NCBI GenBank assembly: GCA_018296165.2
Contig: JACKQL020000002.1
Coordinates: 2,232,001-2,296,000 of the forward strand
DNA: 64,000 nt
DNA from: Termitomyces sp. T153
Lineage: Eukaryota; Basidiomycota; Agaricomycetes; Agaricales; Lyophyllaceae
Direction: 5' to 3'
This document shows positions 7,773-61,570 of the stretch, piece after piece. Positions within the stretch are counted from its first letter, which is position 1. Every line of letters starts with the position of its first letter. The translations under genes were made by a program, and so were the position numbers. Below the pieces are notes generated by a model. The model did no database searches. It was not told the DNA's origin and saw only the letters and a program-made list of their open reading frames with translations.

Positions 7773-9263
7773 GCCTGGTAATCCCACCGATGAGCCTGCT
7801 CTGCGCAATGGCCCTCCATGAGACAGACCTCCCCATTTCAATCTCTGCACTCCCCATACCAACATGCCTCCATTCCACCAGAACATTGCAGCCCCTCTGA
7901 GACAGCCCACAGGCCCCGGGGCACCCCAACTCCCTTTCCCTGCTGGTCTCTCTTGCCCCCCACCTGTCCTGATGCCCAACCCTCCCACCAACGCCGATTA
8001 CTTTGGACCCCCCACCTCCAGAGGACCCCCTTCCCCTTGATGGGCCTCTGGGCCTTTCTCAGGTAATGTGGGGCAGCCCCCCAGCAGTGGACCTCCCAAC
8101 AGTGGACCACTTGGAGAATGGGGCCCAGCTATGGACAACTTCCCCCTCCAGCACAGCAATGGAAACAACTACTACTACTACTACAATGCTAGACTCCTGC
8201 CCCAAACCCAAAACACCCAGGACAACACTCATGACACACTGGCTCAGGAAACAAAATTTAACATTTAAAAGCCTGAACCCTTCATTGGTTGCAATCCCCA
8301 GAAGTGGCACATCTTTCTAACCCAGTGTCTAACAATGTTCCAAGCTAAGCCAATTACCTTCCAGCTTGAAAGCTCATGAGTGGCCTTTGCTGTGTCATAT
8401 TTGCAGGGAATTGCCTTTGATCATTACACTGCGCTACTCCAGTTTGATCCCAACAGCCCCATGCTCTCCAATTGGCTTGCTTTCACCCAGGAATTCTTGA
8501 GTAAGTTTGGCATCTTTGACACCATAGTGGAGGTGGAGGAAAACCTCTTCAACCTCTGGATGGGCAACAACAAATGTTTCACAACCTTTATTATACAATT
8601 TGAACAGAAAGCCTATGAAACTGGGTGGAACTACAACACCCTCCGCTTCACCCTCCATTGCACCCTGCCTCAATGGATCAAGGACATCCTCTGCTTTGCA
8701 CCCAAGCAAACCACCTACAACAGGTACAAGGCAATTGTTACCTAGGTTGACCAACATTACTGGGAAGACCAGAGTGAGAACATAGCACTCCAGACTTCAT
8801 GGAACACCTCTGGCAACACCAACTGGCAGGCCAGAGCAACCAACGGCACTCAACCCTCAATACCCACTAATTCTGCCAATCCTACACCCCATTTCCCTCC
8901 AGGCTGAGGACCTTCCAGTGCCAATCAACTCCTGGAACAGTGTCTCCCTACCCAGCTCAATGCTGCCAACCTCCAGGAGGCTTTGAAACCCCAGGATGCT
9001 AACCCCAATGACCACAATGACATTCTGGACTTTGCCAACAACAAGAAGCTCTATGCGCAAACAAGATTTGGAATAGGCTGTGGATCAACATATTGGAGGA
9101 AACTCAGGAGAAACAATGGAAAGAAGGCACATGCATCCTATGTGGTGAGCAGAGATACTTTATTTGCAGTTGTCCTAAATGACAGGTGATGGGATGTGCT
9201 ATGTGGATGATCAATGGAGAAGACTGTGATTGCCAGTTTATGGAAAATGAGTTGGTGGTTTAG
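7773..9263 (+). pseudogene. gag: A1 gag, central and C-terminal part
   Basis: This aligns with A2 gag from about 11750 to 13244: a Pro-rich linker, the NNYYYYYN tract (five TAC codons, near 8168-8190), and capsid with SYLQGIAFDHYTALLQFDPN, LSKFGIFDTIVEVEENLFNL and FIIQFEQKAYETGWNYNTLRF. The nucleocapsid end has decayed CCHC residues near 9135-9180. There are many stops (TGA at about 8038, TAA near 8265, TGA near 8378, TAG near 8743). The final stop TAG just after ENELVV coincides with the A2 gag stop. Confidence 0.75.
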
Positions 9264-9334
9264 GTCTTAAAGATGCACTAGACTGTGGAACAGACTCTGA
9301 TGTCTTCTCCACCCCAGTCACACTTCTGCATGCA

Positions 9335-9701
9335 ATGGTACTCACCACGGACAACCTCCCAGCACACCTCCCCTCCCACTCCTCCACCACCCTTCTCCTC
9401 TGCACCACTCTCCCCTTCTCTGACCACTCTATTCCCACACTAGTTGACAGTGGCACCATGAATAACTTCATTGATGAATACCTGGCAGTACTTGCTCTCC
9501 ACCACCTCCAATGCCTCCCCACTCCAATCCCCCTCAAGCTCTTTGATGGCAACCCCACCCCCATTAGATACATCACACACTGCCTAGAAATAACCATGAC
9601 CTTTGCTAATGGACAACAACAAGAACTCTGGCTACTCATCACAAAACTACACTCCTCTGCCCCTGTCATCTTAGGCTTCTCCTGGCTCTGCTCCACCAAC
9701 C
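9335..9701 (+). pseudogene. pol: A1 pol, first protease domain, split by A2
   Basis: This is the first of two retropepsin-like domains. The active-site motif reads VDSGTMNNFIDEYLA (DSGA in A2) and the C-terminal motif is VILGFSWLCSTN. The frame is cut at codon ACC-AAC by insertion of A2. It resumes at 20540 with CINWPSLTLHLDWDNP, matching [16 protein letters not shown] in A2. The 5 bp CAACC at 9697-9701 is duplicated at 20535-20539. Confidence 0.8.
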
Positions 9702-10103
9702 TGTCACGACCCGCTCCCTAGCTCCCTAGACACTGCTCTCAACCCCTCCCGATTTCCCACCTAACTCCCCGGGACCCCGCCCACACTTTCGACGCCCACA
9801 CTGGACAACTCCGACGCTCCTCCGGCAAACCCCGATGGCAACTCCCTCTCCGTAGCCATCAACACCCCCTCGAAACCTTCCCCCACCGTTCCTGGCCATG
9901 TCATACGTCCCCGACCCCCTACCCTAGTTTACCCGACCCGTCCCGGAGTGTCACAACGTCCCCAGAGCGGCCGTGCCCCCAACTGATCCCATCAGAATAC
10001 AGCCGCGGCCTGACCTTGGGTTGTATCCGACACCCGTCGACTCAGCACAGCTCCGTCAACCCTCGCCATCATATCCGCCGCCTCGGAGGCACCCAGTAGT
10101 CAG

Positions 10104-10111
10104 TATATAAG
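10104..10111 (+). promoter_or_regulatory. TATA box of the A2 LTR promoter
   Basis: TATATAAG sits 32 bp upstream of AGTCTTGATATTA (10136-10148), the segment complementary to the primer site. Both are kept in every A LTR of the window, including the decayed ones, in the context CCAGTAGTCAGTATATAAG. The spacing fits an RNA that starts at or just before the AGTCTTG motif. Confidence 0.7.
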
Positions 10112-10135
10112 TCATAGAATAACTCCTCGAACTTG

Positions 10136-10148
10136 AGTCTTGATATTA
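10136..10148 (+). promoter_or_regulatory. 5' RNA segment complementary to the primer site
   Basis: AGTCTTGATATTA is the 13-nt perfect complement of 10702-10714. In Tf1-like elements the first nucleotides of the genomic RNA pair with the primer site and are cleaved to give the primer. Position relative to the TATA box agrees with this being the RNA 5' end. Confidence 0.7.
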
Positions 10149-10701
10149 CATTTTACCAGTTTCCCATGTTTCGTCTCTTGTCTTGTCTCTATTTCTGTTT
10201 CTAGGCTTTGAATTTATCTTTTCTCAGTCTCGTCTCGTCTCTGTCTTGTCTCGACTGTACATACTTCCTTTGTTTCTCTGAAGTTCCCTTGCTCTCTACG
10301 TCAGTACAAACTCCGCGCACGCGCCATGACCTAAACATTATTAACAACAACTCCGGACCTCGCTACCCGCTCGGCCCCGGAAACCACCAAGCCCCGGTCA
10401 TCCCCTGTCCAACTCCGATCCCGCTCCCCATCAACCGAGAAGCCTCCGCCTACCCCGCAAATCTACTTGTGCACCCACTAACTAGCCCTGACACCTGCCC
10501 TGGGTCAACGACCAGTACCTCCGGTCTTAGACCCCTCCGAATCACTCAGGACTTACTCGGGCCGCTCTCCCTAGGGGCCCCTCGCAAGCTTTCCCCACCT
10601 CCGCTCCAACACCAGACGCCCGGTTATAAGCGCAGGACATCGCGTCCGCCTAGTAAGGACTCGCCAGTGTACTGAGCCCCCGTCGTCAGCGGAACCTGAC
10701 A

Positions 10702-10714
10702 TAATATCAAGACT
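10702..10714 (+). promoter_or_regulatory. A2 self-priming primer binding site
   Basis: TAATATCAAGACT begins on the first base after the LTR. It does not begin TGG as tRNA-primed sites usually do, and it pairs perfectly with 10136-10148. Confidence 0.75.
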
Positions 10715-10733
10715 CCCCCTTACCCCATTTTTG

Positions 10734-13244
10734 ATGTCTGCGTTTAACCCTGCGTACAACCCAGTTGGTTACCCAACCAACGCCTACGGCTGGCCCATAT
10801 TGGAAAATTCCTATGCCCCATTCTACTTGGGTCCCTTCGCGGACCAATACGTGCTCCGTCACTGGACCCCTGACCCCAACCAGGTGTTCTACGCCCCCTC
10901 CATCAGCCAGGGAATACCCCCGGGCTGGCGCCGCCCTCCCGCATTCCACGCCGATGGCAACAACCCCCATATCAACCCCGGAGGATACTCCGCAGCACCC
11001 CCCAACCCCGCCTACCTTCCCCCTGCCCATTACTATGCGTACCCAATCCCCGCTGCAGCCCCAGTCCCTCCGGAAACCACGGATAACTATTCCCCACCCC
11101 GCCCACCATTCGCTGTTCAAACCCCTCCTTCTCCTAGGCAGCAAAGGATTGAAGCCTACGCTCAGCAACGCGACGAAGTCCTCTGCTTCCTCTGCCTGTC
11201 CCCTGCAGAATTCGCAAGGCGTACCCGCACCCTCCTTACCAACTTAGGCTACCCCAACACCTCCACAACCCCGGAGGTCTGGGCGGACCGACTCCTCAAC
11301 TTCCACGAACGCTACCTACAAGGGAACCTCCCAGAGAATACGCAAGGCACCCTGGGCCTCGACGACAACTTATGGAACGAGCTCCGCGCCTTGGTCAAAG
11401 AAATCCACACTAGCCTGAACCCCCGCCCCTTCGAAGATCCCCTGGATCCCGCCTGCTCCTTCCACGTGCAACGCGAGGAACCCGTCGGGACACAAAACAA
11501 AGCCCCATCTTCCGTTCCCCGCCAGCAGGAAGAACTCAATGCGGCCTCCAGCATCTTGAGGAATCTCAACCCCGCGGGGGGGTTGTTCGACCAACCCGCC
11601 GCCCACACCCTGGCCCTCTCCGCCCGGCCCCGGGCCAGCTTGGTGCCCAGCATCTTCCAAACCTGGGACCAACCTGCCGTCCCCGAAATCCGCTCCCAAT
11701 GACCGCCCCTACGCGTCAACGACGACAACTGGACCCTCTCCTATATCAACGAGCCGGGCAACTCCGCCGACGAACACCCCCCGCGCAACGGGCCCCAACG
11801 AGACCGACCCCCCCACTTTGACCTCCGCGCCCCTCGTAGCAATGCCCCTCCGCCCCGTCCCAACGCCCCAGTTCCCCCGCAACAGCCCCTGGGCCCCGGG
11901 GCACCCCGACCTCCTCTTTCCGTCAACCCCTCTCGTCCCCCGCCTGCCCCAATGCCTAACCCCCCCAACGACATCAACTATTTCGGACCCCCGAATCCCG
12001 GAGGACCCCCTCCCCCTTGATGGGCCCCAGGACCCGCCCCGAGTAGTGTAGGTCAAAACCCTGGTGGGGGACCACCCAATGGCGGACCCCCGGGAGGATG
12101 GGGCCCGGCGATGGGCAGCTTTCTCCCCAAGCACGGAAACGGAAATAACTACTACTACTACTACAACACCGGACCCCCACCTCGAACTCAAAATTCGCAG
12201 GACAATACCCACGACGCACTGGCCCGGGAAGGAAAGCTCGACATCCAGAAGCCTGAACCCTTCACCGGCCGCAACCCCCGGAAGTGGCGAATCTTCCTGA
12301 CCCAGTGTTTAACTATGTTTCAAGCTAAGCCCATCACTTTTCAGCTTGAGAGCTCACGAGTGGCCTTCGCCACATCATACTTACAGGGCATCGCCTTCGA
12401 CCACTACACCGCGCTACTCCGGTTCGACCCAAACAATCCTGTACTCTCCCATTGGCTTGCTTTCACTCAAGAGTTCTCGAGTAAGTTTGGCGTCTTTGAC
12501 ACCGTAGCAGAGGCGGAGGAAAATCTCTTCAACCTCCGAATGCGCAACAACAAACGCTTCACGACCTTCATCGTACGATTCGAACGAGAGGCCTACGAGA
12601 CCGGCTGGAATTACAACGCCCTCCGGTTTGCCCTCCGTCGTGCCCTGCCCCAACGGATCAAGGACGTCCTTTGCCTCGCGCCCAAACAAACCACCTACGA
12701 TGGGTACAAGGCGCTCGTTACCCAGGTCGACCAACGTTATTGGGAAGATCGCAGCGAAAACACGGCGCCCCGGACCTCGTGGAATACCTCCGGTAACACC
12801 AACTGGCAGGCCAGAGCAACCAATGGCATCCGATCCTCCATCCCCGCCAACCCTGCTAACCCTGCACCCTGCTTCCCCCCGGGCCGCGGAGTCCCCAACA
12901 CTAACCGGCCCCCAGGGCAACGACCACCCGCCCAGCTCAACGCCGCTGACCTCCACGACACCCCAGTACCCCTGGATACCAACCCCGACAATTGCGACGA
13001 CATCCCGGACCCTGCCGATGATCAGGAGGCCCTATGCGCAAACAGGATCCAGGACAGTCAGTGGATCGACGTGCCGGAAGAAATGCAGGAGAAACAACGG
13101 AAGGAGGGCGCGTGCATCCTATGTGGTGAGCAGGGACATTTTATTTGCAGTTGCCCTAAACGACAGGTGATGGGACGCGCCGTGTGGACGATCGACGGAG
13201 AAGACTGCAACTACCAGTTCACGGAAAACAAGTCGGCGGTTTAG
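10734..13244 (+). pseudogene. gag: A2 gag polyprotein with two in-frame TGA codons
   Basis: This is the structural protein that packages the element RNA in cytoplasmic particles. The ATG at 10734 starts MSAFNPAYNPVGYP, the first ATG after the primer site. One frame stays open to TAG 13242-13244 except for TGA at 11700-11702 and 12018-12020, both in contexts that could be former CGA arginine codons. In order it has a Pro/Tyr/Asn-rich N-terminus, a helical region (ERYLQGNLPENTQGTLGLDDN), a Pro-rich linker, a run of five tyrosines at about 12148-12165, capsid with PFTGRNPRKWRIFLTQC and FDHYTALLRFDPNNPVLSHW, and a CCHC knuckle CILCGEQGHFICSC at about 13116-13157. The total is about 836 codons. 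Without readthrough or repair, only the first 322 codons would be made. Pol overlaps its end in another frame. Confidence 0.85.
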
Positions 13245-16200
13245 GTCTGGAAGACGCACTAGACTGCGGACCACACCCCAACGTCTTCTCCGCCCCAGCC
13301 ACACTCCTCCGCGCAATGATGCTCGCCTCGGACAACCCCCCAGCACACCTCCCCTCCCACTCCTCCACAAACCTCCTCCTCCGCACCACTCTCCCCTTCA
13401 CCGACAAACCCGTCCCCACACTAGTCGACAGCGGTGCCACCAATAACTTTGTTGACGAATCCCTGGCAGCACTCGCCCCACAACCCCTCCGCCGTCTTCC
13501 CGCCCCGATCCCCCTCAAACTCTTTGACGGAGACTCTACCCCAGCGGGAGACATCACTCATTGCCTAGAAACGACCCTGACCTTCGCCGACGGACAACAG
13601 CAAGAACTCCGGCTACTCGTCACAAAATTACACCCCTCCGCCCCCGTCGTCTTAGGGTTCTCATGGCTCCGCTCCACCAATCCCCGCGTCGATTGGCCCA
13701 GTCTCACCCTACGCCTCGACCGGGACAACCCCGCCGATTCCGGACTGGTAACCTTCCATGTCCCACCCCCCTACGAGAGCTCCGAGGCCACAATCAACCA
13801 ACCCCGGACTCCGCCGCAACTTCGCTCTAGGTCTGCGCGATTGTTCGTCATCTATGTCTGACTTGGCGGCTCGCTCAAGGAACTTCCCGCCCTCGTAGAC
13901 AGCGGCGCCTCCGGTGTCTTCGTCAGCAACCAACTCGACCTCCAACGCAACGACCTCGACAAACCCCTCGAGCTCCAACTCTTCGATGGGAGCCCCGCCA
14001 CGACAAGAATCACGCAGTACCACAACAACACCCTCACCCTTGATAACGACCTGCAGTTCCAGGCCCAACTCCTTGTTACCCGACTACCCCCGTCGACCCC
14101 GATCGTGCTCGGACTCCCGTGGCTGCGAGACATCAACCCAGACATCAACTGGAAGAACCTTACCATGCAATTCCCCGGCCCCAAAGCGAGCTTAGCAGCC
14201 GCCATCCACCTCTGCTTCCAGCCTATCCCGGACCCCGACGCCACCCCGGATCCGACTGCTACACCTACGGGACCCAGCCCCGTCGACTCCAGAAACCTTG
14301 ACATTAAAATCATCGGCGCCGTCCCCTTCGCGCGCCTCCTACGAGAAGGCACCCCCGCCTTCCAGTTGCAAGTCACTCCAGCTCTACTGGAGGAATACCT
14401 CTGCGCAGGGACTACCATGCCAGAAAAGAAGACAGAGGAACAGATCCTATCCGAAGTAGTTCCCCCGGAGTATCATAAGTTTGCTGACGTGTTCTCCGAA
14501 GGAAGTGCCAAGGAGCTCCCTTTGCACCGCTCCTACGACCACCAGATCGACCTCGAAGAAGGCACCTCACCCCCGTTTGGCAAGATCTACAACATGTCCG
14601 AAATCGAGCTCCGGGCCCTGAAGGAATACCTCGACGACATGCTCGGCAAAGGTTTCATACGTCCCTCGATCTCCGCGGCTGGTGCTCCGGTTTTGTTTGC
14701 CAAGAAAAAAGACGGATCCCTCCGACTCTGTGTGGATTATCGGGGACTCAACAAAGTCACCAAGAAGAACCGGTACCCCCTCCCCTTAATCGGAGACCTT
14801 GTTGATCGCCTTCGCAGCGCCAAGATTTATATGAAAATCGACCTTCGTTCCGGCTACAACAACGTCCGGATCGCCCCGGGGCATGAGTGGAAGACCGCCT
14901 TTTGCACCTGCTACGGCCTCTTTGAGTATCTCGTAATGCCCTTTGGAATGACTAACTCCCCCGCCACCTTCCAGTACTTCATGAATGACATCTTTCACGA
15001 CATGAACGATGTCTTTGTCATCGTATATTTGGACGATATCCTGATCTACTCGAATTTGCCGGCGGAGCATTTGGAGCACGTCCGCCGTGTCCTGGAACGA
15101 CTCCAAGAGTATCACCTTCATGCTAAACCCGAAAAGTGCTCATTCCACACAGCGGAAGTTGAATATCTCGGGGTCATCGTCACCCCTGACGGTGTGCGCA
15201 TGGACCCCGCCAAGGTTGACGCGATACTCAACTGGCCCTCCCCGCGGAACGTCAAGGAGGTACAGTCATTCTTGGGGTTTGCTAACTTCTATTGCCGCTT
15301 CATCGACAACTACTCCGGAATCACCAAACCCCTCAACCGGCTCACAAGGAAGGACACCCCTTGGGATTGGGACAGCAAGTGCCAGGGTGTATTCCTCCTC
15401 CTGAAGAAGGCCTTCACCTCCGCTCCGGTCCTCCGCCATTTTGACCCCTCCCTACCGATCATGCTTGAATGTGACGCCTCCGACTACGCTATTGCCGGGA
15501 TACTCTCCCAGTCAAACTCGGAGGGCAAGGATCTCCGCCCCGTCACCTTCTACACCCGATCGATGATCCCAGTGGAACTCAACTACGACATTTACGACAA
15601 GGAACTCCTCGCGATCGTCGAGGCCTTTCGTCAGTGGTGGGCCTACCTCGAAGGGTCCACGCACCGCATCCAAGTCTACTCCGATCACAACAACCTGCAA
15701 TACTTCACAACCACGAAACAGCTCAGCCGCCGCCAGGCTCGATGGTCCGAAACCCTTTCGGAGTACGATTTTACCATTCACTACCGCCCCGGGCGACTCG
15801 GCGCAAAGCCCGACGCCCTCACTCGGAGACCCGACATGTATCCAAAGAAATCGTTCAAAACCGAACGAAATGCATTCAACCATCAAGTGGTAATCCCACC
15901 CGAACATCTACATGCCGTGCTGATTTTAAACGAAGAAGGAATCCTCCAGCAAATCAGGAATTCACCCCCGGACCCCTTCTTCAACCAGCACGACCCCCGC
16001 AACAACCCCGACGAGTCGAGCGTAGACAACCCCTTTTCGCTATCCCCGGACCACCGCCTGCTGCTCCGAAGTGGACGAATCTACGCCCCGGACCACAAGT
16101 CCATTCGCCTCGACATACTCCGGCAGCACCACGATCACAAACTCCGGGGGCACCCGGGAATTCGTAAGACCCTTCAACTCATCTCCCGGACTTATTTTTG

Positions 16201-17395
16201 GCCAGGAATGAAGAAGGACATCACGCGATACGTGAAGGCCTGCGAACCCTGCCTACGGGCCAAAGTCCCCCGCCATCGCCCCCACGGATTACTGAAACCC
16301 CTCCCCGTCGGTCGCCGCCCCTGGTCCTCAATATCGATGGATCATATCGTCGAACTCCCCGACTCCAAAGGTTTCGACGCAATTCTCGTCGTCGTCTGCC
16401 GCCTTACCAAGCAAGCCCTCTTTATTCCCTGCCACACCACTGACACCGCCCCGGATTTCGCCAAACTATTTCTAGAACACGTATTCTCCAAACACGGACT
16501 TCCCGACGACATCGTCTCTGACCGTGGACCCCTATTCGTATCTCATTTCTGGCAATTGCTGTGCAAGGCACTTGAGATCAAAACCAGCCTCTCTACCGCC
16601 TACCACCCGGAAACCGACGGGCAAACCGAGCGCGTAAACCAGACGTTAGAACAGTATCTTTGCCTCTACGTTAACTATTTACAGAACGACTGGCGCGCGG
16701 AGCTCCCCCTCGCCGAATTCACCTACAACAACACGCCTCACTCCGCCACCGGAGTTTCCCCCTTTTACGCCAACAAGGGCTACAATCCCCGACTCACGCT
16801 GTCCCTCAAGGACATCCCCTCCCACGTGGCCCACGAAGTCGCCGAGGACCTCCGATCCCTCCACCAATTCCTCCGGGACAAGATCGACACCGCCAACCGA
16901 GCCTACTCCAAGCACGCCGACGCCCGTCGCCAGCCGACCCCCGACTGGCCCCCCGGCACCTTGGTCTGGCTCGACCGACGAAATCTTAAGACCCGGAGGC
17001 CTTCTATCAAACTCGACCACAAACGCCTTGGCCCATTCAAGATCCTCCGGAAGGTCTCCACCCACGCTTACAAGCTCGACCTGCCTCCGGGTCTGAAGGG
17101 CCTCCACCCTGTGTTCCACGTTCGACTCCTTGAAAGGCACGCTCCAGACCCCTTCCCCGGCCAACGCCCCAGCCGACCGCCCCCCGTCGAAGTCGAGGAC
17201 GAGTATCACTACGAGGTCGACGAGATCCTCGACTCCCAGGTAGTTCGCGGCCGACTCCAGTACTTGGTCCGCTGGAAGGGCTACGGACCTGAGGACAATA
17301 CGTGGGAACCCCGAAAGAACCTCGACAGGGCCCCCGACGAACTCCGGGACTTCCACCGACGGAATCCCGCCAAGCCCCGGAACCCCCGGGACTGA
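13184..17395 (+). CDS. pol: A2 pol: tandem proteases, RT, RNase H, integrase, chromodomain
   Basis: This replication polyprotein is one frame of about 1400 codons with a single TGA at 13859-13861. Domains in order: protease 1 (DSGA at about 13427, VVLGFSWLR); protease 2 (DSGA at about 13898, IVLGLPWLR); RT with [31 protein letters not shown] and YLDD at 15026-15037; RNase H with [15 protein letters not shown] and YSDHNNL; integrase with an HHCC finger (about 16120-16256) and catalytic D 16340, D 16520, E 16628, a D-x59-D-x35-E spacing; a GPF module (RLGPFKIL); and a C-terminal chromodomain ([27 protein letters not shown], about 17209-17335) that would target insertion to modified chromatin. 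It overlaps gag by up to 60 nt in the -1 frame, so ribosomal frameshifting is likely. The given start is the first ATG of the frame, not necessarily used. The TGA between the proteases needs readthrough or is an inactivating mutation. Confidence 0.9.
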
Positions 17396-17625
17396 CCCAA
17401 CACAGATGGCAATAGTGGGCGTAACCCCTGCCTCTGGGTTCACCAGGGATTCAACTCCCACCAATACTCTCCTACGTGTTTCCACTTACTCCTCTCCTCG
17501 CTCTATCTGAAACTCCCCACACTCAGCAGAAGGTCCGAAGACTGTATAGGAGCAAGTAGTGTACAGGTATATACTCGAACAAGAAATGGGCAGGGAACGG
17601 GTCAGCGACGGGGTCCGAATTCCCC
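17396..17625. other. Gap between convergent pol and antisense gene
   Basis: 230 bp between the pol stop and the stop of the opposite-strand gene. I see no coding frame supported by homology in other copies. It probably holds both 3' untranslated ends. Confidence 0.5.
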
Positions 17626-19321
17626 TCACTCTCCCTCCTCCTCCGACCCCAACCCCGCTACCCTTCCCACCATGAACACCTCCAACTGTGCCACTACCGC
17701 CGCCAGAACCTCGGGTTGCCCGGGGAGCGGTTCCCCCACGTCCGTCGCTATCTCCCACCACACCCCGGGGTCTGCCGTCGCCCTTTGCCGATGCCCTGCC
17801 AACAGGCGCCCCATCTGCGTAACCCCTTGACCCAACTCCGGCGGAAGGTCCCCGGGCATCCTCGCCAACCCATCATGGATGGACCCCAGCGCTGCTGACG
17901 CTCCGTCGAGAAGGATGCGATGCTCCCGGGCCCAGTCTGTGGAACCTGAATCAGCGCTTAGGGGAAGAAAGCGGGAAGACCACTCACGAAGCACTCCTCA
18001 CCGGCCCAAGGACGCCTCGTTAGCGAGCCACTCCTCCCGCCGCCGCGCCCTCTCTGCCGCCGCCCAGACTTCCCCAGCGCTGGAACCCTGCTGAGTCTCC
18101 CGCACCCCTGAGCCTCCTGCCTGCTGCGTCGCCACCTCTGCCGCCTCCACCTGCGCCTGCAAATGCACCATCCACACCTCCAACTCCTGCAGATGAGATA
18201 ATCGCTCCGCGGCAGTCCCAATGGCAACGTCCTTGTCTTTCTGCACCAGGTCCCGTTCCCTCCGAACCCCGTCCAACTCCCGTCGAGCCCCGTCCCTCTC
18301 CTCCCGTACCCCCTGAATCTCCTCCTCACGTACGACCAACAACCGTTCCAAGCCCTCTACCCGACGCCACAGATAGGCCTCCGCAACCGACCACGACCTG
18401 TCCGCAGACTGCTCAACGGGGGCTCCGGACATAGGGGAATACACCACGGAACCAGGGGGGCCCCCCATCACCTGCTCGCCCCGCGCCCGCTTACTGGGAC
18501 CCGCCTCAGGTGAAGGGGACGCCCTCCGTTTCCCTTTCTCCTGCCGGGAAGGGGCCCCCTCCTTCCGTCCACCCCGCGGAGGGCCCACCTTCATGACAGG
18601 CGCGCTGACCCGTTCCCCTTCCCCAGCCCCGGAGCCCCTCCCCAACACCCTGCCCTTCCGTCCTTCCTCCAGCTGCGCTGCGACCCAACCCTGGTCCCAC
18701 CCTTGCTCTGCCGCGACGCAAACAGCCCGCCAACTCAGGGTGATGGAGCACTTCTCGTGCCGCGAACGGCACGGAAGGCACACCGACGTGTCCCGCCGTA
18801 CTCCCGATGCCGGTTCCTCAAACTCACACTGCTCCCCTCGTCGGGTACAAGACGCACACTGCAGGGGCATGTTAGTCCAGGAGACATGAAGCTAAGTGGC
18901 CACTCACCGGAGCCGCCGCCTGACACCACTCGAGAGTGGGGGGACCCCTCGCCCGACCCACCGCCTCGGCAAACTGCTCCGGCGTCACCTCCGCCTGGAC
19001 CACCCTCAAACCCTCTGGGACAAGCTGGACCACCCCTGGGCAAATGCCAGACTTGGAACGCGTAGAAGTGACCACGCCTGCCGGGGGCTGCGTCGCATCC
19101 GCACCAGACGGTGGCCCTGAGGGACCAGCCACGGCCGCGGACAACTCTGCAAAGGGACGATCAGTGTCCTGGGGTACATGGAATGGGCCGCACTCACAAC
19201 TACGGTACATCGCCTTGACCTGACGGCGATCTCAGCGACCCTCCGAATCTTTGGAGGACGACGGCTGGGAAGGCGGGGACGGTGACCTAGATGCTGTGGG
19301 AGAATAAGCTGAAGAAGACAT
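17626..19321 (-). CDS. A2 antisense accessory gene: six-cysteine cluster and coiled-coil protein
   Basis: This lies on the strand opposite pol, between pol and the 3' LTR, and reads away from that LTR. Model: exon 1 19321-18908 (138 codons, MSSSAYSPTASRSPSPP; one TGA at 19234-19232), a 49-nt intron 18907-18859 (GTGAGT, CTAAC, CTGCAG), exon 2 18858-17988, a 51-nt intron 17987-17937 (GTGAGT to CACAG), exon 3 17936-17626. All joins keep frame. The protein is about 531 residues: Ser/Pro N-terminus, a C-x-C segment (YRSCECG), then C-x2-C-x6-C-x15-C-x2-C-x6-C starting at residue 139, similar to a fungal Zn2Cys6 cluster with a long loop. After that come a basic Ser/Pro stretch (KRRASPSPEAGPSKRARG), a long coiled coil (RRVEGLERLLVVREEEIQGV..., about 70 residues) and a helical end. 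A second TGA precedes intron 2. Decayed copies (50826-52336, 53607-54063) keep the cysteines. A nuclear DNA- or chromatin-binding role is inference. Confidence 0.75.
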
Positions 19322-19521
19322 TGCAACAAGCTGGCGGACTCCTGGGTGCGTCCACCCCTTTTAATAAGTTAAGAAGGGGCCCCTGACAAACGGCGGCCGC
19401 ACCTCGACTTCCTTCCCCACGCTGCCGCCGCTTGCTGCGGTTTGATCAATATTGATCAACTTCGATTCCCACGCCCTACCGGTCCCCGACTCGCTCCCCA
19501 CGTCTCGAGGGTCTCGACACT
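19322..19521. other. Upstream region of the antisense gene, next to the 3' LTR
   Basis: About 200 bp between the antisense start codon and the polypurine tract, including a TTGATCAATATTGATCAA palindrome at 19442-19459. This must contain the antisense gene's promoter unless transcription starts inside the 3' LTR. The related copies at 52337-52535 and 54064-54264 keep the TTGAT(C/T)AATATT core. Confidence 0.45.
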
Positions 19522-19534
19522 GAAGGGGGGGTGA
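19521..19534 (+). promoter_or_regulatory. A2 polypurine tract
   Basis: TGAAGGGGGGGTGA directly precedes the 3' LTR and would prime plus-strand synthesis. Equivalent purine runs precede the A LTRs at 52548 and 54276. Confidence 0.7.
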
Positions 19535-20534
19535 TGTCACGACCCGCTCCCTAGCTCCCTAGACACTGCTCTCAACCCCTCCCGATTTCCCGCCTAACTC
19601 CCCGGGACCCCGCCCACACTTTCGACGCCCACACTGGACAACTCCGACGCTCCTCCGGCAAACCCCGATGGCAACTCCCTCTCCGTAGCCATCAACACCC
19701 CCTCAAAACCTTCCCCCACCGTTCCTGGCCATGTCATACGTCCCTGACCCCCTACCCTAGTTTACCCGACCCGTCCCGGAGTGTCACAACGTCCCCGGAG
19801 CAGCTGCGCCCCCAACTGATCCCATCAGAATACAGCCGCGGCCCGACCTTGGGTTGTACCCGACACCCGTCGACTCAGCACAGCTCCGTCAACCCCCGCC
19901 ATCATATCTGCCGCCTCGGAGGCACCCAGTAGTCGGTATATAAGTCATAGAATAACTCCTCGAACTTTAGTCTTGATATTACATTTTACCGGTTTCCCAT
20001 GTTTCGTCTCTCGTCTTGTCTCTATTTCTGTTTCTAGGCTTTGAATTTATCTTTTCTCAGTCTCGTCTCGTCTCCGTCTCGTCTCGACTGTACATACTTC
20101 CTTTGTTTCTCTGAAGTTCCCTTGCTCTCTACGTCAGTACAAACTCCGCGCACGTGCCACGACCTAAACATTATTAACAACAACTCCGGACCTCGCTACC
20201 CGCTCGGCCCCGGAAACCACCAAGCCCCGGTCATCCCCTGTCCAACTCCGACCCCGCTCCCCATCAACCGAGAAGCCTCCGCCTACCCCACAAATCTACT
20301 TGTGCACCCACTAACTAGCCCTGACACCCGCCCTGGGTCAACAACCAGTACCTCCAGTCTTAGACCCCTCCAAATCACTCAGGACTTACTCGGGCCGCTC
20401 TCCCTAGGGGCCCCTCGCAAGCTTTCCCCACCTCCGCTCCAACACCAGACGCCCGGTTATAAGCGCAGGACATCGCGTCCGCCTAGTAAGGACTCGCCAG
20501 TGTACTGAGCCCCCGTCATCAGCGGAACCTGACA
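19535..20534 (+). repeat. A2 3' LTR
   Basis: A 1000-bp LTR, TGTCACGACCCG...GGAACCTGACA, matching the 5' LTR base for base except about 26 substitutions by eye, and followed by the target duplication CAACC at 20535-20539. Confidence 0.92.
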
Positions 20535-20539
20535 CAACC

Positions 20540-21190
20540 CCTGCATCAACTGGCCTAGCCTCACCCTCCACCTTGACTGGGACAATCCCACCAACTCTGA
20601 ACTAGTGCCCTTCAATGTCTCACCCTCCTCCGAGAACCCCGAGACCATGATTGACCATCTCTGGACTCCTCCACAGCTCCACTCTAGGTCCATGTGGTTG
20701 TTTGTCATTAATGTCTGACTTGATGGCTTGCCTAAGGTACTCCCACCCTTGTTGATAGCAGTGCCTCTGGTACCTTTGTCAGCAGTCAACTTGACCTTTG
20801 ATGCAATGACTTCGACAAACCCCTCAAGCTCCAACTCTTCAATGGAAGCCCTGCCATACAGGGATCACTCAATACCATGACAACACTTTCACCCTTGACA
20901 ATGATCTGCAGTTCCAGGCCCAGCTCCTTGTCACCCAACTCCCCCCATCAACCCCAATAATGCTCAGACTCTCATGGCTGCAAGATGTCAACCCCGACAT
21001 CAATTGGAAGAACCTCACCATTCAATTTCCTGGCCCCAAAGCAAGTCTAGTGGCTGCCATCCCCCTCTGCCTCCAGTCTATCTCAGACTCTGATATCTCC
21101 AACCCTGGTGCCAACACCTCTGAAGCAACTCAAAGCCCCTCAACCTCTGACAGCAACCCAGAAGGTGAAGAAAATGCAACCCCACCTTAG
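20540..21190 (+). pseudogene. pol: A1 pol continued: end of protease 1 and all of protease 2
   Basis: This resumes A1 after the nested A2. The end of protease 1 (CINWPSLTLHLDWDNP) is followed by a TGA at 20716-20718, at the same place as the TGA in A2 pol. Protease 2 follows, with its active site changed to VDSSASGTFVSSQLDL (DSGA in A2) and the motif [27 protein letters not shown]. It ends at TAG 21188-21190 in a stretch that A2 does not share closely. It shows that the two-protease layout predates both copies. Confidence 0.8.
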
Positions 21191-21274
21191 TCACTTTTGA
21201 TCAAATCATGATGGCTGCCTCCCAACATACCTTGGAATTGATACAAAGGCCTGCAGTATCCTGACCAGTGACAC

Positions 21275-24141
21275 TTGACCCCTCCAACCAACTCTACTAC
21301 CACTCCAGACTCGACCACTACTGCCCTGTCATCCATCCCCATTGATTCCAGAAACCTCAACATTAAAATCATTGGCACCATCCCCTTTGCATGCATCCTA
21401 CAAGACGGCACCCCCACCTTCCAGTTACAAATCACACTAGCCCTACTGGAGGAGCATCTCCACACAGAAACCACTGTGCTGGAGTGCAAAATGGAGGAAC
21501 AGATTCTATCCAAAGTAGTTCCCCTGGAGTATCATGAATTTGCTGATGTGTTCTCTGAAGGGAGTGCCAAAGAACTTCCCCCACACTGCTTCTATGACCA
21601 CAAGATTGACCTCAAAGAAGACACCTCGCCCCTGTTTGGCAAGATCTACAACATGTCTGAGATCAAGCTCCAGGCCCTAAAGGAGTACCTCGATGACATG
21701 CTTGGCAAGGGCTTCATACACCCATTGATCTCCACTGCTGGCGCTCCAGTCTTGTTCACCAAGAAGAAGGACAGATCACTCCAACTCTGTGTGGATTATT
21801 GGGGACTCAACAAAGTCACCAAAAAGAACCAGTATCCCCTCCCCCTGATTGGAGATCTTGTTGACCACCTCTGCAGTGCTAAGATCTACACAAAGATAGA
21901 CCTCTGCTCTAGCTACAATAACATCTGTTTTGCTCCAGGACATGAATGGAAGACTGCCTTTTGCACCCACTATGGCCTCTTTGAGTACCTTGTAATGCTC
22001 TTTGGAATGACTAACTCCATCACCACTTTCCAGTACTTCATGAATGACATCTTCCACAATATGAACAATGTTTTTGTCATTGTGTATCTGGACAACATCT
22101 TGATCTACTTGAATTTACTAGAGGAGCATTTGGAGCATGTCTGCCATGTCCTAGAATGACTCTGGGAGTATCACCTTCATGCCAAACCTGAGAAATGTTC
22201 CTTCTACATGATGGAGGTCGAATACCTTGGGGTTATCATCACTCCTGACGGCATGCACATGGACCCCACCAAAGTTGAAGCTATACTCAATTGGTCCCCA
22301 CCACAGAATGTCAAGGAGGTACAGTCATTTCTGGAGTTTGCTAACTTTTATTGCTGATTCATTGACAACTACTCCAGAATCACCAAACCCCTCAACCAAC
22401 TCACGTGGAAGGATACCCCTTGGGATTGGAACAGCAGGTGCCAAGGTGTATTCCTCCTCCTGAAGAAGGCCTTCACCTCCACTCCAGTCCTCCACCATTT
22501 TGACCTCTTCCTGCTGATCATACTTGAATGTGATGCCTTTAACTATGCTATTGCTGGAATACTCTCCCAGTTGGACTTTGGATCTCCGCCCTGTCACCTT
22601 CTTCACTCATTTGATGACCTCTGTGGAGCTCAACTACAACATCTATGATAAAGAACTCCTTGCAATCATTGAAGCCTTCCATCAGTGGCAGGCCTACCTT
22701 GAGGGATCCCCGCACTGCATCCAAGTCTACTCTGACTACAACAACCTGCAATACTTCACGACCACAAAACAACTCAGCCGCCACCAAGCTCAATAGTCCA
22801 AAACCCTCTCAGAGTACAACTTCACCATCCACTATCACCCTGGATGACTCGGTGTGAAGCCTGATGCCCTCACTTGAAGGTCTGATGTATATCCAAAAAA
22901 ATTGTTTGAAGCTGAACAGAACACATTCAACCATTGAGTAATAATCTCTCCCAAACATCTACATGCCATGCTGATTTTAAATGAAGAAGGGATCCTCCAT
23001 CAGATCAGAAACTCACCTCTGGACCCTTTCTTCACCCAGCATGACCCCTGCAACAATTTTATCAACAAGTTGAATGCCAAAAAACCCTTTATGCTGTCTT
23101 TGGACCACTGCATCCTGCTCTGGAGTGGACAAATTTATGCTCCAGACTACAAGTCCATTTGCCTCAACATACTCCGGCAACACCACAACCACAAACTCTG
23201 GGGACACCCAGGAATTTGTAAGACCCTTCAACTCATCTCCTAGACTTACTTTTGGCCAGGAATGAAGAAGAATGTCACACAATACATAAGAGCCTGCAAA
23301 TCTTGTCTTTGAGCCAAGATACTGTGCCACTGCCCCCATGGGTTATTGAAGCCCCTCCCTGTTGGCTGATGCCCCTGGTCCTCAATATCAATGGATCATA
23401 TTGTTGAACTCCCTGACTCTGACTCCAAAGGTTTCAATGCAATCCTTGTTGTTGTCTGCCACCTCACTAAACAAGCCCTCTTCATCCTCTGCCACACCAC
23501 TGACAATGCTCTGGAGTTTGCCAAACTATTCCTTGAGCACATATTCTCCAAGCATGGACTCCCAGACAACATTGTCTCTGACTGCAGACCTCTATTCATA
23601 TCTCATTTTTGGCAATCACTATATAAGGTGCTTGAAATCAAAACCAATCTCTCCACTGCCTATCACCCGGAGACCAATGGACAAACAGAATGAGTAAACC
23701 AGACATTGGAACAGTATCTCTGCCTCTACATTAACTATTTACGAAATGACTGGCATGCAGAACTTTCTCTCGCTGAGTTTACCTACAACAATATGCCTCA
23801 CTCTGCCACTGGAGTTTCCTCCTTCTACGCCAACAAGAGCTACAACCCCTGACTCATGCTATCCCTCAAGGATATTCCTTCCCACATTGCCCACAAAGTC
23901 GCTGAAGATCTCCAATCCCTTCACCAGTTCCTCCAGGATGAGATTGACATTGCCAATCAAGCCTACTCCAAGCATGCTGATGCCTGATGCAACCTGACCC
24001 CCGACTGGTCCCCTGGCACCTTGGTCTGGCTTGATCAACAAACTTTCAAGACCTAGAGGCCCTCCATCAAGCTTGATCACAAATGTTTCAGCCCTTTCAA
24101 AGTCCTTTGGAAGGTCTCCATGCACACTTACAAGCTCAACT
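21275..24141 (+). pseudogene. pol: A1 pol: RT, RNase H, integrase, truncated before the chromodomain
   Basis: This aligns with A2 pol from about 14290 to 17085. RT is the best kept part (open to 22159): [48 protein letters not shown], and YLDN in place of YLDD at about 22087-22098. RNase H (LECDAFNYAIAGIL, DKELLAIIEAFHQWQAYL) and integrase ([60 protein letters not shown]) are split among frames by stops and small indels. Homology ends at HTYKLNL, where the LTR at 24142 begins, so the chromodomain, antisense gene and 3' LTR of A1 are absent here. Almost every A2 CpG has become TpG or CpA. Confidence 0.85.
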
Positions 24142-43555: not shown

Positions 43556-45520
43556 TTCACTAGTGAACGACAAGCAAAACTTGTTAAGGACCACAACACA
43601 GGATTCCTCACTACTGACAAAATCAACATACTAGTCAACATAGTTGCCAAGCAGGAAAAAGCTTTTGCTTGGGAAGATTCTGAATGAGGAAGTTTGCGCC
43701 CCGACTTTTTCCCACTAGTATGCATACCAACAATTCCACACATACTGTGGGTCCAGCATAATTGCCCCATACCCCCAGGACTAGAAAAGGAAGTATGCAA
43801 GATTATTCATGACAAGATTAGTGCTGGTGTTTACAAACCTTCAAACTCTGCTTATTGCTTGTGATGGTTTTGTGTTCTCAAGAAGAATGGTAAGCTCAGA
43901 ATTGTGCACAGTCTTGAGCTGCTAAACCGTGTCACCATTCACCATTCTGGAGTACCACTCTTTTCAGACCATGTTGCAGAATCTTTTGCTGGACGCATCT
44001 GTGGCGCCACTCTCGACCTCTACGTTGGCTACGATAAGCGACTTATTGACCCTGCTTCACGTGACTTAATGACATTCCAGACTCCATTTGGCACTCTTCA
44101 CTTAGTAACCTTGCTAATGGGATGGACCAACTCTATGCCTATTTTTCACGATGACATTACTTTCATTTTACAGCCAGAGATCCCCCATAACATGCTCAGC
44201 TTTATTGATGACATTGGCACTAAAGGACCCAAGGACTGGAAGATCATTAATGGAAAACCCACTAAGCATCCCACTAATCCAAACATTTACCTAGTGCTAT
44301 GAGAGTTCTTTGAGCTTCTCAACAGGGTTCTCCAGTGAATGAAATATTGTGGTGGCACTTTTTCTGGTCACAAACTTGTTCTTTGTGCCCCGACTTTCAA
44401 AATTCTAGGTCATGTTTGCACTCCTAGTGGACAAGTCCCTAATGAAAGTCGCTTAGCCCTAATTAAGCAGTGGGGCCCTTGCAAGTCACTATTGGAAGTC
44501 CGAGTCTTTTTGGGCACAGTTGGGGTACTTAGGATTTTCATCAAGAACTTTGCTCATTGAGCCAACAACCTAACAAAACTTACTCGCATTGGTGTCCCTT
44601 TTGAGTTTGGTCCTGACTAGATAAATGCTCAACATGACCTTGTGAAAGCCTTACAAGATGCTAAGCCCCTAGTTCCTATCAACTATAAATTGTCTCACCC
44701 TGTCATCTTAGTGGTGGACACCTCATACATAGCGGTTGGATATTACCTTTGCCAGTGCACTAGCAACAATTGCAAGGAATGCCACTACCACCATTTTGGA
44801 TTGATTATGCTAAACGACAGAGAAGCCAGATCCAGTCAGCCCAAGTTGGAACAATTTTGATGTTTCACTTTGAGCTGGTCCACATCAAAGGAACTTTCCA
44901 TGGCCCCAATGGTCTTTTGTGACGCCTGCCACAGCCTGGCGACCCTCCAGTTGACAATAGCAACAACTCCATTTATGAAGATTGGATAGACCGCTTACAT
45001 GAGTTCATTCACCAAGTTCAGCTACCACTAAGAACTTTGCTCATTGAGCCAACAACCTAACAAAACTTACTCACATTGGTGTCCCTTTCGAGTTTGGTCC
45101 TGACCAGATAAATGCTCAACGTGACCTTGTGAAAGCCTTACAAGATGCTAAGCCCCTAGTTTCTATCAACTATAAATTGTCTGACCCTGTCATCTTAGCA
45201 GTGGACACCTCATACATAGCGGTTGGATATTACCTTTGCCAGTGCACTAGCAACAATCGCAAGGAATGCCACTACCACCATTTTGGATTGATTACGCTAA
45301 ACGACAGAGAAGCCAGATCCAGTCAGCCCAAGTTGGAACAATTTTGATGTTTCACTTTGAGCTGGTCCACATCAAAGGAACTTTTCATGGCCCCAATGGT
45401 CTTTTGTGACGCCTGCCACAGCCTGGCGACCCTCCAGTTGACAATAGCAACAACTCCATTTATGAAGATTGGATAGACCGCTTACATGAGTTCATTCACC
45501 AAGTTCAGCTACCACTGCCA
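43556..45520 (+). pseudogene. pol: B1 RT and RNase H, with internal duplication
   Basis: RT can be read from NCPIPPGLEKEVCKIIHDKISAGVYKPSNSAYCL (about 43760) through KKNGKLRIVHSLELLN, TPFGTLHLVTLLMGWTNSMPIFHDDITFIL and the catalytic box FIDDIGTKGP (about 44200). This is the FIDD variant of the RT box. The thumb (MKYCGGTFSGHKLVLCAPTFKILGHVC) and connection (LLEVRVFLGTVGVLRIFIKNFAH) follow. RNase H starts VILVVDTSYIAVGYYLCQC, but after SQPKLEQF about 50 codons expected before FHFELVHIKGTFHGPNGL are missing. The block 44543-45029 is repeated directly as 45030-45516. Stops at 43863, 44300 and elsewhere confirm it is dead. Confidence 0.75.
44543..45516. repeat. 487-bp direct tandem duplication in B1 pol
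   Basis: Unit 1 (44543-45029) and unit 2 (45030-45516) begin AAGAACTTTGCTCATTGAGCC and end GTTCAGCTACCACT. They differ at roughly ten bases, mostly C/T. 487 is not a multiple of three, so the frame shifts. It spans the end of the RT connection, RNase H and the linker to integrase. Confidence 0.9.
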
Positions 45521-50825: not shown

Positions 50826-52336
50826 CTGCCAACAGCCACCCCATCTGCCTGAATTCCTGCTCCAACTCTGACAGGAGCTCCCTGGGCATCTGCACCAACC
50901 CATCCTGCATTGAGGCATGGGCAGCCAATGCCCCATTGAGGAGGATGTGGTGCTGTCAGACCCAGTCTAGATAGCTCAGTATTAGTGGGACAAAAGAAAA
51001 GAAAAGTGGGTGAACTCACACATTACTCCTCAATGCTCCAAAGCTGCCTTGTTGGCCAACCACTCCTCATGCTGCCTTTCTGCCTCTGCCCTGGCTCCCT
51101 CTGCCTTTGCAACCCCTTGCTATACCTCTGCCCTCTGCTCTATTCATGCCTCTGACTGCACTAAGCATTTCTGCAATGCTTGCACCTCCAGTGACCTCTC
51201 TACAATTGTCTGCACAGCTTCCTCTAACTCCTGCTGTGCCAAGTCCCAATCCCTTTGCACCTTGTCATGCTGCCACTGAACCCCATCACAATCTCATGCA
51301 ATCCTCCAAACCTCCTCCTCACACAACACCAACAGTTGAGATAATGCCTCTACCCATTGCTGCCAAAACATCTTGGAAACTGGGGAAGAGAGGCTGGACT
51401 CCCCCCCAGAACCCCCCACCAAGGCCCCTGACCCAGCAGAGTACATGTGCAGCCCCAAAGGACCCGCCATTGACTCCTCCCTCTGCAGCCACTTGCTGGG
51501 CCCTGCCTCTGGCAAAGGGGATGCCCTCTATTTTCCCTTGTTGCATGCCGCAGGAGCCCCCTCTCTCCACCCACCCCATGGGAGCCCCACCTTCATTATG
51601 GACTGCCCTGTGCTACCTCTGCACTCTACTCTGGAACCCCAACCCAATACCTTTCCCTTGCACCTCTTGAGCAATTGCTCCACTACCCATTCCACATCCC
51701 ATCCCTGCTCCTCTGTCATGCAGGCCACATGCCAACTTAACAAAATTGGGCACTTCTTGTGCCTAGCATAGCAGGGGATGCATACAGAGGTGTCTCAGCA
51801 GGACTCCTGCATTGGCTCCTCAAACTCACAATGCTCCCTGCAGTGAGTGCAGAGAGTACACTAAAATATCAGATCAGCCTTGAACCCTGCAAATGATGCT
51901 ACAAACTCACCAGAGCTTCCATTTGACACCATTCCAGGATCAGGGGACTCTTTGCTTGCCCCACCACCTCTGCAAACCTCTTAGGGGTCACATCCACCTG
52001 GGCCACCCATAATGCCTCTGGGACAGCCATAATCTGCCTTGGGCCAAAGTTGGGCCTTGAGGAGCACCCTGCTGGCACTGAGGCAGGCAGCCCCAGAACA
52101 GCACCTTGGGATGAAACCCAAGAAGAGCCAGCCACTGCTGCAGACAACTCTGTCAAACTTGATCAGCCATGATGGAACATGGGGGGAACAGACCCACACT
52201 CACAACTATGGTACATGGCCTCGATGCATCGGTGGCCACAGCAAGGATCAGACTCCTTCAAGGAGGAGGAGGTAGGAGACATTGATTGTGAAGCAGATAG
52301 TACTAATGATGCTGGAGAGTAAGCAGAGGATGACAT
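50826..52336 (-). pseudogene. A5 antisense accessory gene, 3'-truncated
   Basis: A decayed copy of the A2 antisense gene. The ATG at 52336 gives MSSSAYSPASLVLSASQSMSPTSSSLKESDPCCGHRCIEAMYHSCECG, here open through the point where A2 has a TGA, and it shows extra cysteines. The intron before the cluster keeps GTGAGT and TTTTAG. The cluster reads CTLCTHCREHCEFEEPMQES..CIPCYARHKKCP: all six cysteines and the x15 loop are kept despite stops. The basic Ser/Pro region and coiled coil follow in broken frames, then GTGAGTTCACC...ATCTAG as intron 2. It is cut at 50826 by the B1 LTR, in the exon 3 equivalent of A2 position 17790. Confidence 0.7.
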
Positions 52337-53606: not shown

Positions 53607-54063
53607 CAAACCTGGCACAACAATGCTGCAAACTCACCAGAGCTTTCACTTGGCACCATTCCAGGGTTGGGGGACCCTACACTTGCACCACCACCTCCAC
53701 AAACTTCTTAGGAGTCACCTCCACCTGGGCCACCCACAGTGCCTCTGGAACAACTATAATCTCCTCCAGGCTAAAGTTGGGCCTCAAGGAGCACCCTGCC
53801 AATACTGGAGCAGGCAACACTGGAACTGCACCTTGCAACAAAACTCCTGATGGGCTAGCCACTGCCACAGACAATTCTATCAAGCTTGATCAGCAATGCT
53901 GGAATATAGAGGGAACAAACCCACACTTACAACTATGGTACATTGCCTTGACATGTTAGCAGCCACAACAAGAATTGGATTCCCCCAAGGAGGAGGGAGC
54001 GGGAAACAATGATCATGACACAGGTGATGCTGATAAAGCTGGGGAGTAAGCAGAGGAGGACAT
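53607..54063 (-). pseudogene. A6 antisense accessory gene, N-terminal part
   Basis: A second decayed copy of the exon 1 region. ATG at 54063, then SSAYSPALSASPVS..., ESNSCCGC before a stop, MYHSCKCGFVPSIFQHC, and the FVEVVVQVxGPP segment. It ends at 53607, just after the donor site of intron 1 (CTCACC on the plus strand), so only exon 1 is present. The 670 bp 53607-54275 is equivalent to 51880-52547, giving a tandem [3' region + LTR] arrangement. Confidence 0.65.
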
Positions 54064-61062: not shown

Positions 61063-61069
61063 TTGCTTC

Positions 61070-61570
61070 ATCCCAGACCCAACCTCACTTTGTTCGGTTA
61101 GGTCCTTGATATTCTACTCAATGCTTCATCCCAGACCCAACCTCACTTTGTTTGGTTAGGTCCTTGTATTTCAAACTCAATGCTCAGTCCCAGACCCAAC
61201 CTCACTTCGTTCGGTTAGGTCTTTGTATTTCAAACTCAATGCTAAGTTCCAGACCCAACCTCACTACATTTGGTTAGGTCTTTGTATTTTGTCAACTCAA
61301 TGCTTAGTCCCAGACCCAACCTCACTTTGTTCAGTTAGGTCTTTGTATTTTGTCAACTCAATAATAAGTCCCAGACCCAACCTCACTTCATTCAGTTAGG
61401 TCTTTGTATTTCAAACTCAATGCTTCATCCCAGACCCAATCTCACTTCATTCAGTTAGGTCTTTGTATTTCAAACTCAATGCTAAGGCCCAGACCCAACC
61501 TCACTACATTTGGTTAGGTCTTTGTATTTTGTCAACTCAATGCTGAGATCCAAACTCAACCTCAGTTTGT
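61070..61570. repeat. Tandem repeat, 58-61-bp unit, about 8.5 copies
   Basis: The unit contains CCCAGACCCAACCTCACTT, then TTCGGTTAGGTC, TTTGTATTT and CAACTCAATGCT. CAGACCC occurs at 61074, 61132, 61191, 61250, 61311, 61372, 61431 and 61490, with a decayed unit at about 61550. Units alternate between CAAACTCAATG and GTCAACTCAATG spacers, which accounts for the 59- and 61-bp steps. Single decayed units recur near 61805 and 62585. Confidence 0.9.

Follow-up and report, generated by a model that had tools for sequence, protein, structure and literature searches.

Antisense genes in LTR retroelements

HBZ of HTLV-1 is a bZIP protein encoded by a spliced antisense gene, which starts inside the 3' long terminal repeat (LTR). 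In fungi, an antisense gene named brtn was reportedly described in Boty-like elements by Zhao et al. (2011, Virology 417:248). The available parts of two further sources (PMC8365987, PMC4227169) place brtn in the Boty Ty3/gypsy elements of Botrytis cinerea. In plants, antisense accessory open reading frames (ORFs), referred to as aORF-3R, occur in Grande (gene23), RIRE2, Retand and PvRetro13; according to the available part of PMC7264820, gene23 of Grande is nuclear, with a promoter of its own located upstream, and the aORF-3R proteins have no clear database similarity, the exceptions being PvRetro13 ORF2, with an SMC domain, and Retand ORF4, with a transposase-28 domain. That part also mentions that the 3' LTR of HTLV contains the antisense promoter, and states that the function of the antisense accessory genes of LTR retrotransposons is not known. 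For the chromodomain gypsy elements of fungi, Tcn1-like and others, the legend of a figure includes one more ORF, the function of which is unknown (PMC2864245, available text). Here, we describe an antisense gene harbored by A2, a retrotransposon located in a stretch of 64,000 nucleotides (nt) of Termitomyces sp. T153 (contig JACKQL020000002.1, positions 2,232,001 to 2,296,000), hereafter referred to as the window. Termitomyces is a termite-farmed agaric belonging to the Lyophyllaceae, and the genome that was searched comprises 72.4 Mb in 307 contigs.

The antisense gene of A2 is located on the minus strand between pol and the 3' LTR and consists of 531 codons plus the stop. Antisense accessory genes as such are already known from plants and from Boty; what distinguishes the present gene is the Zn2Cys6-like domain, the presence of conserved introns and the existence of a family in which it is kept although gag and pol are not detectable, none of which was found reported in the literature searched. 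Compared with the plant aORF-3R genes, the position and the orientation are the same (beside 97 of 112 pol matches), and the protein is conserved to a degree similar to that of the other proteins of the element, though more weakly than pol; the three features listed above represent the difference, and a cysteine cluster is not mentioned in the available part of PMC7264820. Boty and A2 are both fungal Ty3/gypsy elements with an additional antisense gene, but the host of Boty is an ascomycete and the likeness is one of description, not of sequence comparison. The Tcn1-like elements share with A2 the chromodomain and the Ty3/gypsy affiliation, whereas the available text of PMC2864245 contains none of the words antisense, zinc and opposite, and hence presents no antisense gene under such terms. 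Lastly, HBZ and the gene of A2 are alike in lying antisense near the 3' end of their retroelements, in being spliced (predicted for A2) and in coding for a DNA-binding region (putative in A2) and a coiled coil (predicted in A2). HBZ is regarded as a functional analogue, with no sequence relation claimed; the A2 protein has a cysteine cluster, no bZIP match was retrieved for it in Pfam, and the candidate promoter is located between the LTR and the gene. The original prediction of the antisense gene, which was made from the letters of the window, did not include the fungal precedent brtn, nor the family that retains the gene with no gag or pol detected.

Structure and copies of the antisense gene

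The gene starts with the ATG at 19321-19319 and is composed of exon 1 (18908..19321, minus strand, as for all its parts), intron 1 (18859..18907; 49 nt, GTGAGT...CTAAC...CAG), exon 2 (17988..18858), embedding the cysteine cluster, a basic Ser/Pro stretch and a long helix, intron 2 (17937..17987; 51 nt, GTGAGT...CAG), and exon 3 (17626..17936), which encodes a helical C-terminal domain and is the most constrained exon in most of the pairs compared. The re-reading of the minus strand confirmed the exon and intron coordinates, the intron lengths and the 531 residues originally predicted, as well as the cysteine spacing C-x2-C-x6-C-x15-C-x2-C-x6-C of the window copy. The frame of this copy, assumed to be open, is instead interrupted by two in-frame TGA codons that had been overlooked, i.e., codon 30 (19232..19234, minus strand) and 17998..18000 (minus strand).

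These two stops look like decay, since 26 of the 42 distinct full-length gap-free copies (1,696 nt) lack in-frame stops under either gene model, and 18 of the 22 in-frame stops found in 41 copies (L046 having been dropped from the stop and CpG counts) are CGA to TGA changes. In the same 41 copies, 42% of the departures from the majority base of a column (1,076 of 2,573) are CpG transitions. Thus, the copies decay after insertion to a considerable extent via CpG change.

Two other copies of the gene had been assigned to the window, and self-alignment retrieved both of them. The one referred to as A5 (50827..52336, minus strand) is decayed and divergent, and still harbors both introns and all six cysteines; the other (53638..54063, minus strand), conversely, is just an exon-1 remnant.

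The search of the genome with the exon-2 protein disclosed at least 135 scored matches. The antisense gene is located within 5 kb on the 3' side of 97 of the 112 scored integrase-chromodomain matches, with a median gap of 609 bp, while 15 of the 112 pol matches have no antisense gene among the scored gene matches. It follows that the gene belongs to the element, as originally proposed. The relatives of the antisense protein are all from Termitomyces among the matches listed, and more than 100 Termitomyces "hypothetical proteins" are likely retrotransposon genes. Three Termitomyces models (P0044, P0067 and P0012) continue from the antisense gene into an apparent antisense reading of pol, and their C-terminal parts may be annotation artefacts.

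Conservation of the introns

Besides the copies closely related to A2 (family 1) and A5, a further family (family 2, P0114-like) was recognized, whose protein shares 43-46% identity with that of family 1. Family 1, A5 and family 2 carry both introns at identical codons (15 aligned rows plus 6 further family-2 rows), and the intron interiors are strongly diverged between families. Intron 1 is 49 nt long in family 1 and 50 nt long in A5 and family 2, with GT...AG termini in 21/21 rows; intron 2 is 51 nt long in the window copy and 52, 53, 56 or 57 nt long in its relatives. The retention of a 51-nt intron 2 leaves the frame open in most copies, that of the window included, and for this reason a single copy is no proof of this intron, the status of which depends on the relatives. 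Intron 2 is removed in most of the 18 aligned automatic models (strains J132 and T112) and kept in one model from Mn162 (P0012), the automatic models being weak evidence. On the other side, the splicing of intron 2 is challenged by the donor change from GT to AT in 4/42 family-1 copies and in 6/9 family-2 copies, and by the lack of the acceptor AG in L075. On the whole, the antisense gene is predicted to be spliced. The idea that introns lying opposite to the genomic RNA might survive replication is supported by their persistence across three divergent families.

Selection on the antisense frame

The ratio of nonsynonymous to synonymous substitution rates (dN/dS) of exon 2, when calculated in the antisense frame, is 0.25-0.38 within family 1 (L034 versus four copies), while the five pairs that compare different families have values of 0.30-0.45; in these nine pairs, the four control frames with a different codon position 3 gave values of 0.66-1.68. 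The mirror frame, sharing codon position 3 with the antisense one, gave 0.28-0.46 within families and 0.51-0.75 between them. The dN/dS of exon 3 is 0.12-0.39 (12 pairs). A neutral simulation starting from L034 exon 2 (CpG rates of 1, 5 and 15 times, all change placed on one branch, 290 codons even where fewer were aligned) yielded means of 0.69-0.94, and the observed value (0.25-0.42 for L034 against four other copies) was reached in 0/200 runs under each of the 12 settings. The dN/dS among copies, which had been proposed as a check, is not the value of about 1 that would have told against the original prediction.

Some of the results speak against such a constraint, or at least limit it. In 3/12 pairs, the frame-specific constraint on exon 2 is slight: the pair L076-L079 has a value of 0.58 (other frames 0.61-0.98), L080-L081 of 0.54 (others 0.58-0.81) and L080-L082 of 0.74 (others 0.52-0.87), so that in the last pair the antisense frame is not the lowest. 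Exon 1 is looser, with a dN/dS of 0.32-0.94 in the 11 of 12 pairs that were calculable. Moreover, when the same copies were compared (six pairs), the antisense coding sequence had values of 0.27-0.52 and pol (integrase-chromodomain part) of 0.19-0.36, the antisense sequence being the less constrained of the two in 6/6 pairs. Taken together, the codon-level comparisons indicate that the antisense gene is under purifying selection as a protein-coding sequence.

Retention of the gene in a family with no detectable gag or pol

Family 2 was read, in pieces, in one copy (C28:484300-494600), whose 5' and 3' LTRs are 93% alike over 939 bp and enclose about 4.5 kb of internal DNA; the start following the 5' LTR is self-priming-like by eye. 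The gag and pol of A2 did not match the internal DNA of this copy (tblastn, E 0.01), and the one pol match of the region (L087 3841-4440) is located outside the LTR. In a second copy (C83), the 2.2 kb beside the gene is devoid of a pol match, and none of the six ORFs of the two copies has a Pfam match. The two copies can be aligned block-wise, with 73-83% identity, and not end to end. As for the whole genome, 21 of the 40 scored copies of a 1-kb family-2 internal piece are located within 4 kb of one of the 69 typed family-2 gene matches, and for all 40 the distance to any of the 112 pol matches exceeds 5 kb.

The dN/dS of family 2, calculated on nine copies, amounts to 0.31 both for the cysteine domain (other frames 0.72-0.88) and for exon 3 (0.69-1.30 in the other frames, 0.42 in the mirror one). 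Three observations weigh on the other side: the mirror frame of the cysteine domain has almost the same value (0.33), the constraint on the entire exon 2 is weak (0.51 versus 0.55-0.95), and two of the 69 family-2 gene matches are within 5 kb of a pol match (at 4.0 and 4.9 kb). The values for the different parts thus indicate that the constraint has been kept at the cysteine domain and at the C-terminus and is weak in the coil. Family 2, being related to family 1, lacking detectable gag and pol and keeping the gene, represents a natural deletion experiment.

The 3' LTR of a family-2 copy (L086:945-1146) contains a block of 202 bp that is 86% identical to the start of the A2 LTR and is absent from its own 5' LTR, which suggests an exchange between families.

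The encoded protein

The six-cysteine cluster spans residues 139-175 (18748..18858, minus strand) and is flanked by the conserved Cys133 and Cys185. A random substitution of the cysteines in other copies had been regarded as telling against the original prediction; in family 1, however, five of the six cluster cysteines are kept in 41/41 copies and the sixth in 40/41, and none of the 41 lacks Cys133, Cys185 or the distant Cys44. In an alignment of 13 proteins, with both families represented, seven of the eight cysteines that form or flank the cluster are invariant, the eighth being conserved at 90% or more. The complete motif occurs in 43 of the 123 proteins compared, with a middle loop of 15 residues in 42 of them and of 10 in one; in family 2, the loop is of 10 residues in 9/9 aligned copies, one of which (L092) lacks the fifth cysteine.

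The Zn2Cys6 pattern is C-x2-C-x6-C-x(5-12)-C-x2-C-x(6-9)-C. The antisense protein shares with the fungal factors of this type the two C-x2-C-x6-C halves, the basic residues in the second half and, by prediction, a downstream coiled coil, and it differs from them in the loop (15, or 10 in nine family-2 copies), in the two extra flanking cysteines and in the weak profile scores. The assignment to Zn2Cys6 originally put forward can be maintained in part: the halves are exact, and PF00172 is matched, weakly, by 9 of the 13 members of the two-family alignment (best E 0.0026). It is weakened by four results: the family-1 loop falls outside the usual range, the window exon 2 is below the gathering cut-off of PF00172 (15.5 versus 21 bits), AlphaFold2 gave no confident fold for the cysteine domain in two models of relatives (confidence score, pLDDT, mostly <50), and the intact motif is absent from 21 of the 55 deposited proteins possessing both flanks, a count in which model errors and substitutions are pooled. 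The VIA-align rows for models cover parts other than the cysteine domain. In summary, the cluster resembles Zn2Cys6, and the protein likely binds zinc.

Downstream of the cluster, the basic stretch KGKRRA...PSKRAR (18481..18537, minus strand), whose PSK has an SK invariant in alignment A4, is presumably a nuclear localisation signal motif, which suggests a nuclear location. It is followed by a predicted long helix or coiled coil at residues ~290-385 (18118..18405, minus strand), as judged from the AlphaFold2 models of the relatives: in the first, the helix covers residues 273-368, with ten-residue pLDDT means of 75-87 over 281-360; in the second, residues 198-263, with means of 80-98 over 201-264. 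The C-terminus is helical, with middling confidence.

Candidate promoter and operator upstream of the gene

The ~210 nt existing between the 3' LTR and the ATG can be aligned throughout the set of five sequences examined, which are those of the window, L034, A5, A6 and family 2. This stretch contains a TATA-like sequence, ATTAAAAGG (19357..19365, minus strand), 36-44 nt before the ATG, which is found as ATT(A)AAAAG in 5/5 aligned upstream regions, and an 18-bp perfect palindrome, TTGATCAATATTGATCAA (19442..19459, minus strand), 121-138 nt upstream of the ATG, whose AATATT-ATCAA core is likewise present in 5/5 and which is a candidate operator. The palindrome is exact in 64 of 70 family-1 loci (some places being counted twice) and has one mismatch in the other 6; since the family-1 copies are closely related, this count says little about constraint. 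A point weakening its interpretation as an operator is that the complete palindrome was found in family 1 only. It is plausible that this stretch represents a promoter together with a site for a dimeric protein.

Proposed function and alternative explanations

On the basis of these features, we propose that the product of the antisense gene might be a nuclear, dimeric, zinc-binding protein that binds the control sequences of its own family and sets their transcription, a proposal to which we assign about an even chance of being right. Transcription would start near the TATA-like box, the basic signal would take the protein to the nucleus, the predicted coiled coil would dimerise it, and the Zn2Cys6-like cluster would contact the DNA, the candidate targets being AATATT-ATCAA, or the whole palindrome that precedes the ATG, or LTR sites. 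Apart from the domain itself, what speaks most for this proposal is that family 2 has kept the gene without detectable gag and pol, and this is why a regulator is favoured: gag and pol could be borrowed in trans from relatives, whereas the regulator of the family's own diverged promoter could not.

The retention of the gene in family 2 would also fit the closest rival, i.e., an anti-silencing factor, which each family would need for itself. Rather than acting as an ordinary regulator of transcription, such a factor would bind the DNA of the family encoding it and lift CpG methylation or heterochromatin. VANC, from the Arabidopsis transposon VANDAL21, is a precedent for this activity, and the CpG transitions (1,076/2,573) and the CGA to TGA stops (18/22) suggest that the copies are methylated; nevertheless, Pfam searches did not find a chromatin- or methylation-type domain, and we regard this explanation as rather unlikely. 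An accessory protein of the particle, or one helping the pre-integration complex through nuclear import or integration targeting, might also be considered, given the coiled coil, the basic stretch and the retroviral accessory roles suggested for antisense proteins in the available part of PMC7264820. A2, however, already has a chromodomain integrase, and such a factor would be borrowable just like gag and pol, yet family 2 keeps its own; a particle or integration role is for this reason judged unlikely.

The remaining explanations concern the origin and the nature of the frame itself. The antisense RNA could be the functional product, via double-stranded RNA or interference with sense transcription, as discussed for the antisense transcripts of other elements (PMC7264820, available part), and the frame would then be incidental; codon constraint in one frame, the kept intron positions and the kept cysteines make this very improbable. 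The recent capture of a host gene, which would now serve the host, could account for introns of the kind typical of host genes, but the same place beside 97 of the 112 pol matches, the presence in divergent families and the lack of a single-copy host-like relative among the Termitomyces matches listed leave it little credit. Lastly, a chance open frame might be imagined on the basis of the GC content of the region (64%), of the two stops of the window copy and of an intron 2 that is open if retained; the dN/dS values, the neutral simulation, the frame controls and the conserved intron positions refute it.

Returning to the regulator, a broader reading can be put forward tentatively, as possible rather than probable: a fungal LTR lineage would encode a spliced antisense Zn2Cys6-type factor for family-specific sites beside its own 3' LTR, as an independent counterpart of HBZ, and in descendant families, after the loss of gag and pol, selection would maintain this factor. 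If this were true, the regulator, rather than the replication machinery, would be the part that an element cannot borrow. The A2 family offers a recognisable domain architecture, codon-level constraint and conserved upstream elements as candidate targets, and these, together with family 2, make the function of an accessory gene directly testable.

Structure of A2 and its setting in the window

A2 spans positions 9702-20534 and is bounded by a 5-bp target duplication, CAACC (9697-9701 and 20535-20539). Its LTRs (9702..10701, TGTCA...TGACA, and 19535..20534, both on the plus strand and delimited by self-alignment and boundary reading) are 1 kb each and differ at 26/1000 positions, 22 of which are CpG-associated. 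The plus strand harbors a gag ORF (12111..13244; Retrotrans_gag PF03732, E 1.1e-7), an aspartic protease ORF (13184..13861; PF13975, E 3e-5, and PF13650, E 3.7e-5), and a pol ORF of the Ty3/gypsy type (14105..17395), in which Pfam identified reverse transcriptase, RNase H, integrase and chromodomain. With these domains in this order, the LTRs and the target duplication all present, A2 is a Ty3/gypsy chromovirus. Upstream of gag, the stretch 10731-11702 is open for 323 codons and joins the gag ORF at 12111 in frame across two stops; because of this, the start of gag is probably near 10734, and the window copy of this gene is probably broken.

The chromoviruses of the Tf1/sushi type are self-primed, with a primer-binding site complementary to the LTR. 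A2 resembles them in its chromodomain integrase and has a putative self-priming site at 10702..10715 (plus strand), 14 nt complementary to the LTR at 10135-10148 (13 nt in the 3' LTR), as in self-primed elements; it differs from them in the 1-kb LTR, in the length of 10.8 kb and in the antisense gene.

An older relative from this superfamily (~76-80% identity) surrounds A2 and is split at the ends of A2 (7902-9699 and 20535-24137). Elsewhere in the window, a head-to-tail duplication of 487 bp (44543-45029 and 45030-45516; 97.7% identity) was observed, and the overlapping self-matches at 84-88% in 61064-61570 likely represent an imperfect tandem repeat array.
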